Shown one piece after another: positions 53,884 to 60,285 of a stretch of DNA of 64,000 bases. This DNA is from Blattabacterium sp. (Blattella germanica) str. Bge (GTDB lineage Bacteria; Bacteroidota; Bacteroidia; Flavobacteriales; Blattabacteriaceae). A program made the position numbers and the translations under genes. The notes under the pieces were generated by a model that was not told the DNA's origin, made no database searches, and was given only the letters and a program-made list of their open reading frames with translations. How positions within the stretch are numbered: position 1 is the stretch's first letter; each line of letters starts with the position of its first letter. The stretch lies in the NCBI RefSeq assembly GCF_000022605.2, contig NC_013454.1, positions 496,001 through 560,000 on the forward strand, read 5' to 3'.

Positions 53884-53968
53884 GCCCACGTGGTGAAAAT
53901 GGTAGACACGCCACTTTGAGGGGGTGGTATCCGATTAGGATGTGCTGGTTCAAATCCAGTCGTGGGTA
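53884..53968 (+). tRNA. tRNA-Leu (anticodon GAG)
   Basis: 85-nt class II tRNA: acceptor GCCCACG / CGTGGGT with G1:T72 wobble, anticodon stem CCACT / GGTGG with loop TTGAGGG and anticodon GAG, T arm CTGG-TTCAAAT-CCAG. The 132 bp upstream of it show no gene. It reads CUC and CUU codons. It lies 8 bp beyond the stop of ilvA, on the other strand. Confidence 0.92.
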
Positions 53969-53976
53969 CAATGTCA

Positions 53977-55242
53977 TCAAATTAGAACACGAAATAAGTC
54001 TGGATTCTGATTTAAATATTGAAAATGAACTTTATATTTTTTCATTCTTCCTAATAATGCAGAAAATTCATTTTTATCTGCCAATTCTATTCCTATTACA
54101 GCAGGGCCTTCCTCTTTGGAAGTTTTTTTAGAATATTCAAAATAGGCAATATCATCTTTGGGTCCTAAAATATTATTAACAAATTCTTTCAAGGCTCCAG
54201 CTCTTTGTGGAAATTTAACAATAAAATAATGCTTTTTTTCTTCATACAAAAGAGATCTTTCTCGTATTTCTTCAGTTCTAGTAATATCATTATTTCCCCC
54301 ACTTAAAATACAAACAATAGTTTTTCCTTTTATTTTTTCAGAATAAAAATCTAAAGCTGCTATTGAAAGAGCTCCAGCTGGCTCCGCAACAATAGCTTCT
54401 AAATTATATAAATCTAAAATAGTTGTACAAACTTTTCCTTCCGGAACTGTTTTGATATCATATAATATTTGATTGCATATATTAAAATTCAATTCTCCTA
54501 CCTTTTTCACTGAAGCTCCATCAATAAATCTATCGATTGTTTCTAACTCTACAACTTTTCCTTTTTTTAAAGAAAAACTCATAGATGGAGCTCCTTGAGG
54601 TTCCACTCCTATAATTTTAGTTTTGGGACTAAATTCTTTAAAATGACTTCCTACACCAGAAACTAAACCACCTCCTCCAATAGGAATAAAAACATAATCG
54701 ATATTTGAAATGGATTGTTCTAAAATTTCTAAACCAACAGTAGCTTGGCCTTCAATAATTTTAATATCATCAAAAGGATGAATAAAAATTTTTGCATTTT
54801 TTCTACAATCTTTCATCGCCTCATAACTAACCGCGTCAAAAGTATCTCCAATCAAAATGATTTCAACATATTCTTTTCCAAACATTTTTACTCTTTCCAC
54901 TTTTTGTTTGGGAGTAGTACTCGGCATATAAATTTTTCCTGGAATTTTGAGTATATGACAAGAATAGGCCACCCCTTGGGCATGATTTCCTGCGCTGGCA
55001 CACACAATTCCTTTTTTTAATTCTGTTTGAGATAGACTTTTTATTTTATTATAGGCTCCTCTAATTTTATATGAACGTATAATTTGTAAATCTTCTCTTT
55101 TCAAAAAAACATTAGCTTTATATTTTTCTGACAACAGAGTATTTCTCTGTAACGGAGTTTCATAAATGATATCTTTTAATACATTTTTAGCTCTGATTAC
55201 CTCTTTATAAGAAGGAAAGTAACCTTTTAATTTCTTTTTCAA
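53977..55242 (-). CDS. ilvA: Threonine dehydratase (biosynthetic)
   Basis: 421 residues, the single-ACT form as in Bacillus. The PLP lysine is in QIIRSYKIRGAYNKIKSLSQ, PLP-contact loop CASAGNHAQGVAYSC, glycine loop VFIPIGGGGLVSGVG, and the C-terminal regulatory ACT-like domain (HYFIVKFPQRAGALKEFVNN) is present. It converts threonine from ThrABC to 2-oxobutanoate for isoleucine. Last gene of the ilvDBNCA run. Confidence 0.96.
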   Translation of the reverse strand: MKKKLKGYFPSYKEVIRAKNVLKDIIYETPLQRNTLLSEKYKANVFLKREDLQIIRSYKIRGAYNKIKSLSQTELKKGIVCASAGNHAQGVAYSCHILKIPGKIYMPSTTPKQKVERVKMFGKEYVEIILIGDTFDAVSYEAMKDCRKNAKIFIHPFDDIKIIEGQATVGLEILEQSISNIDYVFIPIGGGGLVSGVGSHFKEFSPKTKIIGVEPQGAPSMSFSLKKGKVVELETIDRFIDGASVKKVGELNFNICNQILYDIKTVPEGKVCTTILDLYNLEAIVAEPAGALSIAALDFYSEKIKGKTIVCILSGGNNDITRTEEIRERSLLYEEKKHYFIVKFPQRAGALKEFVNNILGPKDDIAYFEYSKKTSKEEGPAVIGIELADKNEFSALLGRMKKYKVHFQYLNQNPDLFRVLI

Positions 55243-55297: not shown

Positions 55298-56350
55298 CTA
55301 TTTATTTGTGTTTTTTTCCGGTCTAAGACTACGAATAACGGATCCAACTTCCCATAATTCACTTTTTCTAAGATCTCGCAATTCATTTTTCAACTTTACT
55401 CTGTAATCTATATTACTGTTAGATTTAATAATTCTTTCAGCTTCATTTCCAGAATGAACTTCATGATATAATTCTTTAAATATTGGCAACGTCGCATCTC
55501 TAAATTTTTTCCACCAATCTAAAGCTCCTCTTTGTGCTGTAGTAGAACAATTATCATACATCCAATCCATTCCTTTTTCCGATACTAATGGCATTAAACT
55601 TTGAGTAAGTTCTTCTACGGTTTCATTGAAAGATTCTGAAGGAGAATGACCTTTTTCTCTTAATATTTGATATTGTGCGGCAAAAATTCCTTGTATTGCC
55701 CCCATTAAAGTTCCTCTTTCTCCTACCAAATCTGAGTAGACTTCATTTTTAAAATTTGTTTCAAATAAATATCCAGATCCTATTCCTATCCCAATAGATA
55801 GAGTTTTTTCTAAACTTTTTCCACTATAATCTTGATAAATAGCATAACTGGAATTAACTCCTTTTCCTTGTAAAAATAGTCTCCTTAAACTGGTTCCTGA
55901 TCCTTTAGGAGCAACTAAGAAAATATCTATATCTTTAGAAGGATATATTTTTGTTTTATCACAAAAAGTTAATCCAAACCCATGCGAGAAATACAAAGAC
56001 TTTCCTTTAGTGAGATACCTAGAAAGAGTTGGCCAAAAAGAAATTTGACCTGCATCTGATAAAAGATACATGAGTAGAGTCCCTCTTTCAGAGGCTTCTT
56101 CTAAAGAAAAAAGATTTTTTCCTTCTATCCATCCATCTTTGAGTGCTTTTTCCCAAGAAATAGAATTTTTTCTTTGTCCTACAATAATTTGAAATCCATT
56201 ATCTCTTAAGTTTAGAGATTGACCAGGTCCTTGAACTCCATATCCTAAAACAGAAATAGTTTCTTTTTTTAATATTTCTCTAGCTTTTGATAATGGAAAT
56301 TCTTCTCTGGTTACAATAGTTTCTTCTACAGATCCAAATTTAATTTTCAT
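55298..56350 (-). CDS. ilvC: Ketol-acid reductoisomerase
   Basis: 350 residues. NADP fold ETISVLGYGVQGPGQSLNLR, GQRKNS, the stretch HGFGLTFCDKT and the C-terminal metal-binding region (EVYSDLVGERGTLMGAIQGI; Asp and Glu ligands; ETVEELTQSLMPLVSEKGMD). It is the shorter form found in part of Bacteroidota and plants' relatives, not the 490-residue E. coli form. It makes dihydroxy acids for valine and isoleucine. 17 bp after ilvN. Confidence 0.95.
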   Translation of the reverse strand: MKIKFGSVEETIVTREEFPLSKAREILKKETISVLGYGVQGPGQSLNLRDNGFQIIVGQRKNSISWEKALKDGWIEGKNLFSLEEASERGTLLMYLLSDAGQISFWPTLSRYLTKGKSLYFSHGFGLTFCDKTKIYPSKDIDIFLVAPKGSGTSLRRLFLQGKGVNSSYAIYQDYSGKSLEKTLSIGIGIGSGYLFETNFKNEVYSDLVGERGTLMGAIQGIFAAQYQILREKGHSPSESFNETVEELTQSLMPLVSEKGMDWMYDNCSTTAQRGALDWWKKFRDATLPIFKELYHEVHSGNEAERIIKSNSNIDYRVKLKNELRDLRKSELWEVGSVIRSLRPEKNTNK

Positions 56351-56366
56351 GATTTTTATTTAATTT

Positions 56367-56681
56367 TTAAGATGTTGCTAACGGTAAATCTATTTTTTTC
56401 CATGAATTTTTTCTGGAATTTTTTTCTTCTATTTTAGAATAGTAAACATGAATAATTCCAATTAATTTTTCAATTAATTTTTTAACTTTAATTAATTGTT
56501 CTTCTTGACATTCTAAATCTAAAACATACTGAAATTGAACCTTTCCAATAGTTTCATTCTCATTGCTAGAAACGTTAATATGATTGGTTTTCAAATTTCT
56601 TCTGTTCAATATAATAAGTATTCTACTCAATAATCTTGTTTCTCTTTCTCCTAAAATTATTATTCTGAATTGATGCTTCAT
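56367..56681 (-). CDS. ilvN: Acetolactate synthase small subunit, reduced to ACT domain
   Basis: Only 104 residues against 150-190 in relatives. One ACT domain is left (MKHQFRIIILGERETRLLSR; NHINVSSNENETIGKVQFQY) and the C-terminal domain is missing. At positions equal to E. coli IlvH Asn11, Gly14 and Asn29, which take part in valine binding, it has Arg, Arg and Lys (alignment by eye: NESGALSRV to RETRLLSRI). That predicts a subunit which may still activate but does not sense valine. Encoded between ilvB and ilvC. Confidence 0.85.
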   Translation of the reverse strand: MKHQFRIIILGERETRLLSRILIILNRRNLKTNHINVSSNENETIGKVQFQYVLDLECQEEQLIKVKKLIEKLIGIIHVYYSKIEEKNSRKNSWKKIDLPLATS

Positions 56682-56699
56682 AGTATATAAATATTTTAA

Positions 56700-58394
56700 T
56701 TATGTTAAACGAATTTTATCTACAGCTGCTCCTGCAGGAATCATAGGAAAAACATTGTCTTCTCTTTCGATTACAACTTCTAATAAAAAAGCTTTTTCAT
56801 GATTTAATGCTTTTTTTACAGATTCTTTTAATTCTTCTCTTTTGTTTACTTTTTTTGCTTCTATATTATAAGCATTAGCTAATTTGATAAAATCTGGATT
56901 CACTAATTCTGTACACGAATAACGTTTATCAAAAAAAAGCTGTTGCCATTGACGTACCATTCCTAAAAAATTATTATTCAGCAATATTATTTTTACAGGA
57001 ATATCATTTTGTAAAATGGTTCCCATCTCTTGTATTGTCATTTGAATACCTCCATCTCCCACTATACAAATAACTTGTCTATTTTTTGCTCCTAATTGAG
57101 CTCCTATTGAAGCTGGTAAAGCAAACCCCATAGTTCCCAATCCTCCAGAAGTTATTTGACTTCTTTTATAGGTAAAATTGAAATATCTAGAAGCTATCAT
57201 TTGATGTTGTCCTACATCAGTTACAAGAATAGCATTTTTTTGTTTATATTGATTTATCCACTTAATTACCTCTCCCATAGTCATTCCTTCTTTTTTTGGA
57301 TTTAGATCCCCTTGTATAACTGCAATTTTTTCTCTTTCTTTGAGAGCACAAAACTTTTTTATCCACTCTTCATGAGTTGATTCATTGACATAGTTAATTA
57401 ATTTTCTTAAAGAACATTTGCAATCTCCCAATATTGGAATATGACATAATATATTTTTATTAACTTCAGAAGGATCAATCTCTAAATGAATAATTTTAGC
57501 TTGTTTTGCATATTGTTTAACGTCTCCTGTTACACGATCATCAAAACGGATCCCTATTGCAATAAGAATATCACATTGATTAGTTAAAATATTTGGAGCA
57601 TAATTTCCATGCATTCCTAACATACCTACATATAGATAATGATTGCTGTCCAAAACTCCTAATCCCAATAAAGTGCTAGCTACAGGAATCCCTGTTTTTT
57701 CAACAAATTTTTTAAATTCTTCCTCTGCTTCAGCTAAAATAACACCTTGACCTACAAGAATTAAAGGCTTGTTAGCTTTATTTATGAAATTTGCAGCTTC
57801 TATTATTCTATTTTCCTCTATACAAGGATATGGATGAAAATTTTTTACGTATTTACAACGTTCATAATGAAATTCAGATTTTTGAAATTGAGCGTCCTTA
57901 GTGATATCTATCAATACAGGTCCTGGTCTTCCTCTTTTAGCTATAAAAAATCCTTTTTGAATTGATTCACAAATATCTTTAGATTTTAATACTTGAGTAT
58001 TCCATTTTGTTACAGGAATAGAAATGTCTATAATATTTGTTTCTTGAAAAGCGTCGGTTCCCAATAAATGAGAAGAGACTTGTCCTGTAATACAAACAAG
58101 AGGGGTGCTGTCAATCAAGGCATCTGCCAATCCAGTAATCAAGTTAGTAGCTCCCGGTCCTGAAGTAGTAAAACATACTCCTATTTTTCCAGTAGCTCTA
58201 GCATATCCTTGTGCTGCATGAATGGATCCTTGTTCGTGACGCATTAAAATATGTGAAACTAAATTTAAATAATCGTGTAAAGAATCATAAATAGGCATAA
58301 TTGCTCCACCTGGATAACCAAAGATGTATTCTACCTCTTCATGTAAGAGTGCTTTTATTACTATTTCCGAACCAGAGAATAACTTTTTTTCCAT
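56700..58394 (-). CDS. ilvB: Acetolactate synthase large subunit
   Basis: 564 residues, ThDP enzyme. The catalytic Glu is in FGYPGGAIMPIYDSLHDYLN region (RHEQGSIHAAQGYARATG), ThDP-binding GDGGIQMTIQEMGTILQND with N in KIILLNNNFLGMVRQWQQLF, and FAD-binding part in the middle. It condenses pyruvate with pyruvate or 2-oxobutanoate. Followed by ilvN after 18 bp. Preceded by ilvD by 4 bp. Confidence 0.97.
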   Translation of the reverse strand: MEKKLFSGSEIVIKALLHEEVEYIFGYPGGAIMPIYDSLHDYLNLVSHILMRHEQGSIHAAQGYARATGKIGVCFTTSGPGATNLITGLADALIDSTPLVCITGQVSSHLLGTDAFQETNIIDISIPVTKWNTQVLKSKDICESIQKGFFIAKRGRPGPVLIDITKDAQFQKSEFHYERCKYVKNFHPYPCIEENRIIEAANFINKANKPLILVGQGVILAEAEEEFKKFVEKTGIPVASTLLGLGVLDSNHYLYVGMLGMHGNYAPNILTNQCDILIAIGIRFDDRVTGDVKQYAKQAKIIHLEIDPSEVNKNILCHIPILGDCKCSLRKLINYVNESTHEEWIKKFCALKEREKIAVIQGDLNPKKEGMTMGEVIKWINQYKQKNAILVTDVGQHQMIASRYFNFTYKRSQITSGGLGTMGFALPASIGAQLGAKNRQVICIVGDGGIQMTIQEMGTILQNDIPVKIILLNNNFLGMVRQWQQLFFDKRYSCTELVNPDFIKLANAYNIEAKKVNKREELKESVKKALNHEKAFLLEVVIEREDNVFPMIPAGAAVDKIRLT

Positions 58395-58398
58395 ATAA

Positions 58399-60087
58399 TT
58401 AATTCAATTGATCTGTAATGCACCCTTTGGAAGCTGGAGACACCATTTTGGTATATTTGTATAAATATCCTTTTTTTACCTTAAATGAAGGGGGAATCCA
58501 TGATTTTCTTCTTTTATTTATCTCCTCATCTTTCACTTCAAGAGTAATGGTATTATTTTCCGCATCTATTTTAATAAAATCTCCATTTTTAATCAAAGCA
58601 ATCAATCCTCCAGACTGTGCTTCTGGAGTTATATGCCCTACTACAAAACCGTGTGATCCTCCTGAAAATCGACCATCTGTAATAAGAGCGACTTCTTTTC
58701 CTAATCCAGATCCCATAATATAAGATGTTGGCTTTAACATTTCTGGCATTCCAGGCCCTCCCTTTGGTCCGACATATCTGATGACAATTACAACTCCAGG
58801 CAAAATTTTATTTTTCAAAATAGCTTGATTGGCTTCTTCTTCTGAATCAAAAACATTAGCTTTTCCACGAAAAATAGTACCTTCCTTTCCAGTAATTTTA
58901 GCTATGGCTCCTTCAGGAGAAAGATTTCCATATAAAATTCTGATATGTCCGTTTTTTTTGATAGGGTTATCTAAAGAATGAATAATTTTTTGATTGAAAG
59001 TTATATTAGGAACATTTTTCATATTTTCAGATAATGTTTTTCCAGTAACGGTTAGACAATCTCCTGATAATATTCCTTCGTTTAATAGATATTTTATAAT
59101 AACAGGCATTCCACCTATATACATATGAATATCTTCCATTAAGAAAATTCCACTTGGTTTTAAATTTCCAATGAGAGGAACTTGATTGCTAAGTCTTTGA
59201 AAATCTTTTAAAGAAAAATCAATATTTGCCGATTTAGCTATCGCTAAAAAATGTAAAACTAAATTGGTTGAACCACCTAAACACATGGCTAATTTTACCC
59301 CATTTTCTATAGAAGATTTTGTTACGATATCTTTCGGTTTTATTCCTATTTCCAATAGTTTTTTAATATATATAGAAACTTCTTCACACTCTATTTGTTT
59401 CTTTTCACTTGTAGAAGGAGATGAAGAAGAATAAGGGAGCATCATTCCCATCGTTTCCAAAGCAGAAGCCATAGTATTTGCAGTATACATTCCTCCACAA
59501 GCTCCTGGTCCTGGACAAGAATTTTTAACAATATTTTTGTACTCTTTTTCAGTAATTTGGAAAGTATTTTTTTTTCCTAGAGCTTCAAAAGAAGAAACAA
59601 TGTCTAATTTTTGACCATTATAATGACCTGAAGAAATACTTCCTCCATACACTATAATAGATGGACGATTCAATCTAAGTAAAGCTATCATAACTCCTGG
59701 CATATTTTTATCACATCCAGGTATGGCAATTATTCCATCATAATGATGTGAATCAATTACTGTTTCTATGCTATCCGCTATCAATTCTCTGGAAGGCAAA
59801 GAGTACCTCATTCCTGGAGTACCCATAGTAATTCCATCACTGACTCCAATAGTAGTCAATTGAAATCCTACTAAATTTTGAGTAACAACTGATGATTTGA
59901 TTTTTTTTGCCATTTTATCTAAATGCATGTTGCAAGGATTTCCCTCGTACCAATTGCTAACTATTCCTATTTGAGCTTTACAAAAATCGGATTCTTTCAT
60001 CCCTGTAGCATATAACATAGCGTGTGCTGCTGGCAAATCGGGTTCTTTAGTTATGTTTTTACTAAAATCGTTAATTCTTTTTTTCAT
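58399..60087 (-). CDS. ilvD: Dihydroxy-acid dehydratase
   Basis: 562 residues. Iron-sulfur cysteines in AIPGCDKNMPGVMIALLRLN and KNSCPGPGACGGMYTANTMA, and LMEDIHMYIGGMPVIIKYLL and GLGKEVALITDGRFSGGSHG. It dehydrates dihydroxy acids to the keto acids of valine and isoleucine. First structural gene of ilvDBNCA; the leader upstream has an attenuator-like arrangement (60103-60177). Gap to ilvB is 4 bp. Confidence 0.97.
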   Translation of the reverse strand: MKKRINDFSKNITKEPDLPAAHAMLYATGMKESDFCKAQIGIVSNWYEGNPCNMHLDKMAKKIKSSVVTQNLVGFQLTTIGVSDGITMGTPGMRYSLPSRELIADSIETVIDSHHYDGIIAIPGCDKNMPGVMIALLRLNRPSIIVYGGSISSGHYNGQKLDIVSSFEALGKKNTFQITEKEYKNIVKNSCPGPGACGGMYTANTMASALETMGMMLPYSSSSPSTSEKKQIECEEVSIYIKKLLEIGIKPKDIVTKSSIENGVKLAMCLGGSTNLVLHFLAIAKSANIDFSLKDFQRLSNQVPLIGNLKPSGIFLMEDIHMYIGGMPVIIKYLLNEGILSGDCLTVTGKTLSENMKNVPNITFNQKIIHSLDNPIKKNGHIRILYGNLSPEGAIAKITGKEGTIFRGKANVFDSEEEANQAILKNKILPGVVIVIRYVGPKGGPGMPEMLKPTSYIMGSGLGKEVALITDGRFSGGSHGFVVGHITPEAQSGGLIALIKNGDFIKIDAENNTITLEVKDEEINKRRKSWIPPSFKVKKGYLYKYTKMVSPASKGCITDQLN

Positions 60088-60102: not shown

Positions 60103-60159
60103 TCAAAAAGCCCTACCGGTTAGTAGGGATAAAAAATAACACTCAATTTGAATAGTCAT
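60103..60159 (-). CDS. Putative leader peptide of the ilv operon
   Basis: ATG complementary to 60157-60159, TGA at 60103-60105. Product MTIQIECYFLSLLTGRAF, 18 residues, with two Ile and three Leu, among them UUA and a CUA-CUA pair. It lies 15 bp upstream of ilvD and overlaps two hairpins. No clear Shine-Dalgarno site is seen, which is normal for Bacteroidota. That it is translated is inferred from position and composition only. Confidence 0.5.
   Translation of the reverse strand: MTIQIECYFLSLLTGRAF
60105..60128 (-). terminator. Terminator-like hairpin in the ilvD leader
   Basis: On the minus strand CCCTAC (60128-60123), loop TAACCG, GTAGGG (60116-60111), then CTTTTT. A 6-bp, GC-rich stem with a T-run is conspicuous in this AT-only spacer. 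Its 5' arm contains the Leu codons CUA-CUA of the leader peptide, so a ribosome stalled there would keep the hairpin from forming. Confidence 0.6.
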
Positions 60160-60177: not shown

Positions 60178-60285
60178 AAATGAATTATATAATATGCAAA
60201 AATATGAAAAAAATAGATTATATAAAAGCGTTTTTTAGGTATTTATTTTTATAATATTATTATTTTTTGATTAATTAATGAATAT

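Follow-up and report, generated by a model that had tools for sequence, protein, structure and literature searches.

A single-domain acetohydroxyacid synthase small subunit with replaced valine-site residues in Blattabacterium, and its predicted release from valine feedback

Known small subunits of acetohydroxyacid synthase

The small subunit of acetohydroxyacid synthase (AHAS) is required for full catalytic function in the systems studied (PMC13158618). In Escherichia coli, IlvH of AHAS III (structure 2f1f) has two domains and 163 amino acids, and its valine binding has been linked to residues Asn11, Asn29, Leu9, Leu16, and Val35, according to the citation of Kaplun 2006 in PMC11893703. AHAS I is sensitive to valine and AHAS II is insensitive, and their small subunits, IlvN and IlvM, have one ACT domain each (PMC5727371). 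Site residues, not domain count, thus carry a prediction of feedback, and since E. coli IlvN (96 amino acids, one ACT domain) is sensitive, loss of the C-terminal domain alone predicts nothing. In a MAFFT alignment, E. coli IlvN and IlvH both have Asn/Gly/Asn at the positions of IlvH Asn11, Gly14, and Asn29, and IlvM has Phe/Glu/His. Two published mutants fall on these positions: N17K of E. coli IlvN, at the Asn11 position, retains more than 70% of activity in 10 mM valine (PMC6483228), and feedback in Corynebacterium glutamicum is weakened by Gly20Asp, which corresponds to Gly14 (PMC9834717).

The Blattabacterium protein described here resembles IlvM in its single ACT domain, its length (~90 to 100 amino acids for IlvM), and the replacement of all three site residues, but these are Arg/Arg/Lys, the lineage is a different one, and the partner is a Bacteroidota-type IlvB encoded in an ilvDBNCA operon. 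With E. coli IlvN it shares one ACT domain and a similar length, and with the N17K mutant a basic residue at Asn17; the wild type, unlike it, retains Asn/Gly/Asn and is valine-sensitive. The likeness to IlvH extends to the ACT fold and alignment register, not to the two-domain architecture or the Asn11/Gly14/Asn29 site. One-domain AHAS small subunits that are insensitive to valine are already known, and Blattabacterium IlvN is likely another form. Among symbiont enzymes, the prephenate dehydratase of Buchnera shows regulatory-domain changes that suggest desensitization, as PMC2649895 and PMC5054487 cite Jimenez 2000, although enzyme, amino acid, and host all differ. We found no treatment of Blattabacterium ilvN or of its AHAS feedback in the open-licence papers searched.

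The ilvN gene and its operon

The window, a 64,000-nucleotide stretch of the genome of the Blattella germanica symbiont strain Bge, contains the branched-chain operon in the order ilvD-ilvB-ilvN-ilvC-ilvA (Table 1). The ilvN frame opens with an ATG at 56681 and stops at 56367; the plus strand of the same interval has many stops. The 104-residue small subunit reported in the initial annotation is real but lies on the minus strand. It is separated by 18 nt from ilvB and by 16 nt from ilvC. IlvB retains the motifs RHEQG, GLGTMGF, and GDG...NN. No further match to an AHAS small subunit was obtained anywhere in the whole genome (640,935 bases, two contigs), where a single AHAS was found, with the ilvN product as its regulatory subunit. 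Just past the 3' end of ilvA, on the opposite (plus) strand, lies a tRNA-Leu(GAG) gene (53884 to 53969). We also observe two types of ketol-acid reductoisomerase (KARI) inside the phylum: across loci L035 to L112, Blattabacterium IlvC is ~70% identical to that of Cyclobacteriaceae but only ~25% identical to that encoded in most Flavobacteriaceae loci.

Table 1. Features of the ilv operon and its leader in window coordinates
Feature	Position	Strand	Remarks
ilvA, threonine ammonia-lyase	53977..55242	minus	with C-terminal regulatory domain
ilvC, ketol-acid reductoisomerase	55298..56350	minus	
ilvN, AHAS small subunit, 104 aa	56367..56681	minus	one ACT domain followed by a tail
C-terminal tail SWKKIDLPLATS, residues 93-104	56370..56405	minus	recurs through most of the genus
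ACT domain, residues 3-83	56433..56675	minus	AlphaFold2: strand-helix-strand-strand-helix-strand
Lys31, codon AAA	56589..56591	minus	IlvH Asn29
Arg16, codon AGA	56634..56636	minus	IlvH Gly14
Arg13, codon AGA	56643..56645	minus	IlvH Asn11, E. coli IlvN Asn17
ilvB, AHAS catalytic subunit	56700..58394	minus	motifs intact
ilvD	58399..60087	minus	first gene of the operon
Terminator-like hairpin CCCTACT-AACC-GGTAGGG, then CTTTTTGA	60111..60128	minus	leader, 23 nt ahead of the ilvD ATG
TATTTTTG	60197..60204	minus	matches TAnnTTTG

Domain content and fold

The NCBIfam model TIGR00119, which describes the two-domain form, matches IlvN at 23.8 bits (E = 3.5e-5), below its curated cut-off of 56.9 bits, and only over model positions 6 to 75 of 158, i.e., the ACT half. 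No Pfam match to a C-terminal domain was obtained in IlvN, whose chain ends at residue 104. A C-terminal domain concealed by a frameshift was considered and rejected, there being no space for it ahead of ilvC, so that the protein does lack this domain, as first annotated. A Pfam TcdB_N match (20.1 bits against a cut-off of 27) is sub-threshold and was taken as chance.

In an AlphaFold2 model built from an alignment of 49 rows, residues 3 to 83 form a confident ACT fold, with pLDDT mostly above 85 except in a loop at about residues 41 to 50, and residues 87 to 104 are unordered. The top structural matches of the model include the AHAS small subunits 6wo1 (Z 14.3), 2f1f (Z 13.2), 5ypp (Z 12.4), and 2pc6 (79 residues at 1.7 A). 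The modeled fold supports identity as an AHAS small subunit but does not prove it, being unspecific: many other ACT proteins score alike. The tail beyond the ACT domain is perhaps what is left of strand one of the missing C-terminal domain, judging from an alignment by eye with YQEIALYKIP in relatives and with MFNKIAVFFQ, which ends E. coli IlvN.

Replacement of the valine site

A phmmer alignment to IlvH (2f1f) and a wide MAFFT alignment give one gapless register, in which IlvN numbers equal IlvH numbers plus two; positions 11, 14, and 29 below are IlvH numbers. The hand alignment of the initial annotation, with Arg/Arg/Lys in place of Asn11/Gly14/Asn29, was upheld by both methods, and neither restored the valine-site residues. 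The equivalents of Leu16 and Val35 remain.

The replacement is genus-wide, as comparison with other Blattabacterium strains shows. Across 42 intact Blattabacterium IlvN proteins, position 11 is Lys in 19, Asn in 15, Arg in 4, and Asp in 4; position 14 is Arg in 39, Gly in 2, and Lys in 1; and position 29 is Lys in 40, with one Gln and one Arg. The IlvH residue is thus kept by 15, 2, and none of the 42, respectively. The commonest residue at position 11, Lys, is that of the N17K mutant. Relatives had been said to keep the Gly, and this extends to the whole site: in 78 other Bacteroidota, with IlvN taken from beside ilvB (all ~165 to 195 amino acids, with a C-terminal domain), we find Asn11 in 78, Gly14 in 78, and Asn29 in 77 (Asp in the remaining one).

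Several other near-invariant ACT columns are retained in the 42 proteins, including Glu10 (40/42), Leu16 (41/42), and Arg18 (41/42), and Ser36 and Lys66 are also mostly kept. Phe23, Ser38, and Gln63, in columns with no known valine contact, are lost as well; the loss therefore includes the valine site but is not confined to it.

Predicted consequence for valine feedback

We consider it likely that IlvN is a constitutive activator of IlvB that is unable to bind valine. The reduced subunit would still dock on IlvB and activate it, while valine would no longer bind at the dismantled site; AHAS would be inhibited weakly or not at all, and flux to branched-chain amino acids would be less restrained. 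The original prediction of an AHAS free of valine feedback draws support from the site residues and the published mutants and none from the missing C-terminal domain, in view of the valine sensitivity of one-ACT E. coli IlvN.

That same sensitivity without a C-terminal domain could instead suggest that IlvN still senses feedback, with valine, leucine, or isoleucine bound by the altered site in a different manner. C. glutamicum IlvN is regulated despite Asp at position 11, and the kept Leu16 and Val35 equivalents fit such a sensor. E. coli IlvN, however, retains Asn/Gly/Asn, inhibition is mostly lost once Lys takes the place of the Asn11 equivalent, and in Blattabacterium Gly14 and Asn29 have given way to two bulky charged residues, so that we regard continued sensing as quite improbable.

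Should an assay agree with the favored reading, that of a valine-blind activator, Blattabacterium would be a nutritional symbiont whose AHAS is naturally resistant to feedback throughout the genus, matching both the Buchnera prephenate dehydratase and the IlvN N17K mutant employed for valine overproduction. The long-standing idea that symbionts shed end-product control over the nutrients they supply could then be tested directly with one enzyme pair and the series of close relatives described below.

Retention and selection in the genus

Of the 49 Blattabacterium genomes searched, 44 have ilvB, and every one of these has an ilvN match, located between ilvB and ilvC; in 42 it is a clean ATG frame. 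The other five (G001, G015, G042, G043, and G047) have neither an ilvB nor an ilvN match, the sole ilvN match in G047 (E = 0.39) being taken as chance, and their ilvC is either missing or eroded to a fragment. Median pairwise dN/dS over 756 non-independent pairs is 0.30 for ilvN, 0.13 for ilvB, and 0.16 for ilvC, which points to purifying selection on ilvN, with a constraint weaker than that on ilvB and ilvC. Both ACT helices are conserved, with mean top-residue fractions of 0.90 and 0.81. Retention of ilvN fits the need for a small subunit for full catalytic function elsewhere.

Could IlvN be a decaying relic, with IlvB working alone and ilvN merely awaiting deletion? The twofold higher dN/dS of ilvN relative to ilvB would fit, as would the AT-rich replacement codons, the two genomes without a clean ilvN frame (G009 and G016), and a family relative, G066 (L188), in which no ilvN was found and only 43 nt separate ilvB from ilvC. 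We nevertheless hold this to be unlikely, given the presence of ilvN in every genome with ilvB, the conserved helices, and a dN/dS well below 1; inside Blattabacterium, moreover, ilvN disappears together with ilvB and not earlier. The G066 IlvB, whose branch is very long (1.69), is possibly a natural AHAS catalytic subunit without a partner.

In G009 (L121) and G016 (L127), ilvN is split or lacks a clean start, G010 (L122) has a broken ilvB, and no leuA match was obtained in G016. AHAS may be beginning to decay in these three genomes, or the breaks may be sequencing errors.

History of shortening and site loss

Short IlvN proteins were not invented by cockroach symbionts, the form being common to a family relative with a 1.3-Mb genome (G053; 103 residues, Asn/Arg/Asn at the three positions). 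Two further members of the symbiont family have Asn/Arg/Ser in 74 residues (G067) and Asn/Val/Lys in 94 residues (G055), and the symbiont relative G054 has an 81-residue IlvN without the C-terminal domain yet with Asn/Gly/Asn. These relatives form a stepwise series, from Asn/Gly/Asn without the C-terminal domain in G054 to Asn/Arg/Asn in G053, Asn/Arg/Lys in Blattabacterium, and then Lys or Arg/Arg/Lys. On the IlvB tree, built without IlvG, the symbiont family is one clade among Bacteroidota, beside Cyclobacteriaceae, whose IlvN is long, which argues for a shortening independent of that of IlvM.

Short IlvN also occurs in nine genomes of the same order (group g14: L192 to L201 except L196), with genome sizes of 3.7 to 5.2 Mb. 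These probably Chryseobacterium-like and presumably free-living bacteria share with Blattabacterium the single ACT domain, the operon order, and the KARI type, but their IlvN is 93 amino acids long with Asp/Gly/Ser at the valine-site positions, and they form a separate IlvB clade, so that IlvN was shortened at least two times in Bacteroidota. G124 has a short IlvN too. We therefore rejected loss of the C-terminal domain as specific evidence of a symbiosis trait.

On a tree of ilvB plus ilvC from 40 Blattabacterium genomes, the fewest changes required are 5, 2, and 2 at positions 11, 14, and 29, respectively, and Arg at position 11 is limited to one small clade within the Lys clade. Loss of the C-terminal domain would have come first, in the symbiont family's ancestor; Gly14 to Arg and Asn29 to Lys would have been fixed when Blattabacterium arose or close to that point; and the change of Asn11 to Lys and then Arg would have come later, on the branch to the strain Bge genome. 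Within the symbiont family, the aligned proteins show domain loss as an apparently separate event that preceded full site loss. The suggested tie to symbiosis, by which release from valine would serve export of valine, leucine, and isoleucine to the host, is correspondingly weak: the domain loss is shared by the 1.3-Mb relative, has a separate origin in members of the order with large genomes, and in G054 leaves Asn/Gly/Asn in place.

ACT domains bind ligands where the Arg16/Lys31 site lies. The near-fixed pair (39/42 genomes with Arg, 40/42 with Lys, and Glu12 kept) could accordingly be read as a site for a new effector such as an anionic metabolite. With only about two changes per position on the tree, however, shared descent and AT bias explain its constancy, and no ligand is known; a new effector site seems to us very unlikely.

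Adaptation or drift

Desensitization of AHAS to feed the host is plausible, the Buchnera prephenate dehydratase being a precedent, but AT-biased drift or relaxed selection fits equally well, the replacement codons AGA, AGA, and AAA lying in the direction that AT-biased drift would push. Other regulatory domains of the pathway were inspected. Two ACT_9 domains are still present in ThrA, and the C-terminal regulatory domain is still present in IlvA. LeuA (405 amino acids; L214:1489-2706) is without the leucine-binding LeuA_dimer domain, as is usual in the sampled order, where LeuA has ~390 to 420 amino acids. A general loss of regulatory domains was rejected, given the intact ThrA and IlvA domains and the ordinary form of LeuA.

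A terminator-like hairpin in the ilvD leader

Ahead of ilvD we identified a hairpin followed by a T run (Table 1), for which shuffles of the same stretch give an expectation of 0.0 +/- 0.1. Strong hairpins of this kind precede ilvD in 27 of 41 Blattabacterium leaders, against 0 to 1 per set in shuffled sets (n = 15). About 117 nt before the ilvD ATG stands TATTTTTG, a match to TAnnTTTG, the Bacteroidota -7 promoter motif, and most Blattabacterium leaders have the motif comparably far from the ATG; from its position upstream, the hairpin should fall inside the transcript.

Cyclobacteriaceae leaders have a terminator at the same place, preceded by frames such as MFVLVSLVVLIVIII and MFSIVNIILLVVIVI, and in G053 (L263) MEQFYILLINITLVVTLLIRQRGRH stands ahead of the terminator. 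Frames rich in Ile, Val, and Leu combined with strong terminators were seen upstream of ilvD in L263, L035 to L050, L061, and L107; by appearance, these Bacteroidota leaders are classical leader-peptide attenuators. In the Blattabacterium ilvD leaders, where the terminator is kept, no conserved leader peptide rich in Ile, Val, or Leu codons was seen, and the hairpin resembles the terminator of an attenuator that has lost its leader peptide. More speculatively, and in our view doubtfully, sensing of branched-chain amino acids may have been removed at two levels with the hardware kept: an activating ACT subunit whose pocket is filled by the fixed Arg/Lys (or now serves another effector) and a terminator without its leader peptide.

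Across the genus (leaders L227 to L262), hairpin loops measure 4 to 18 nt, one compensatory pair change occurs in L247 (TCCTACT/AGTAGGA), and the hairpin is decayed in the small-genome clade.
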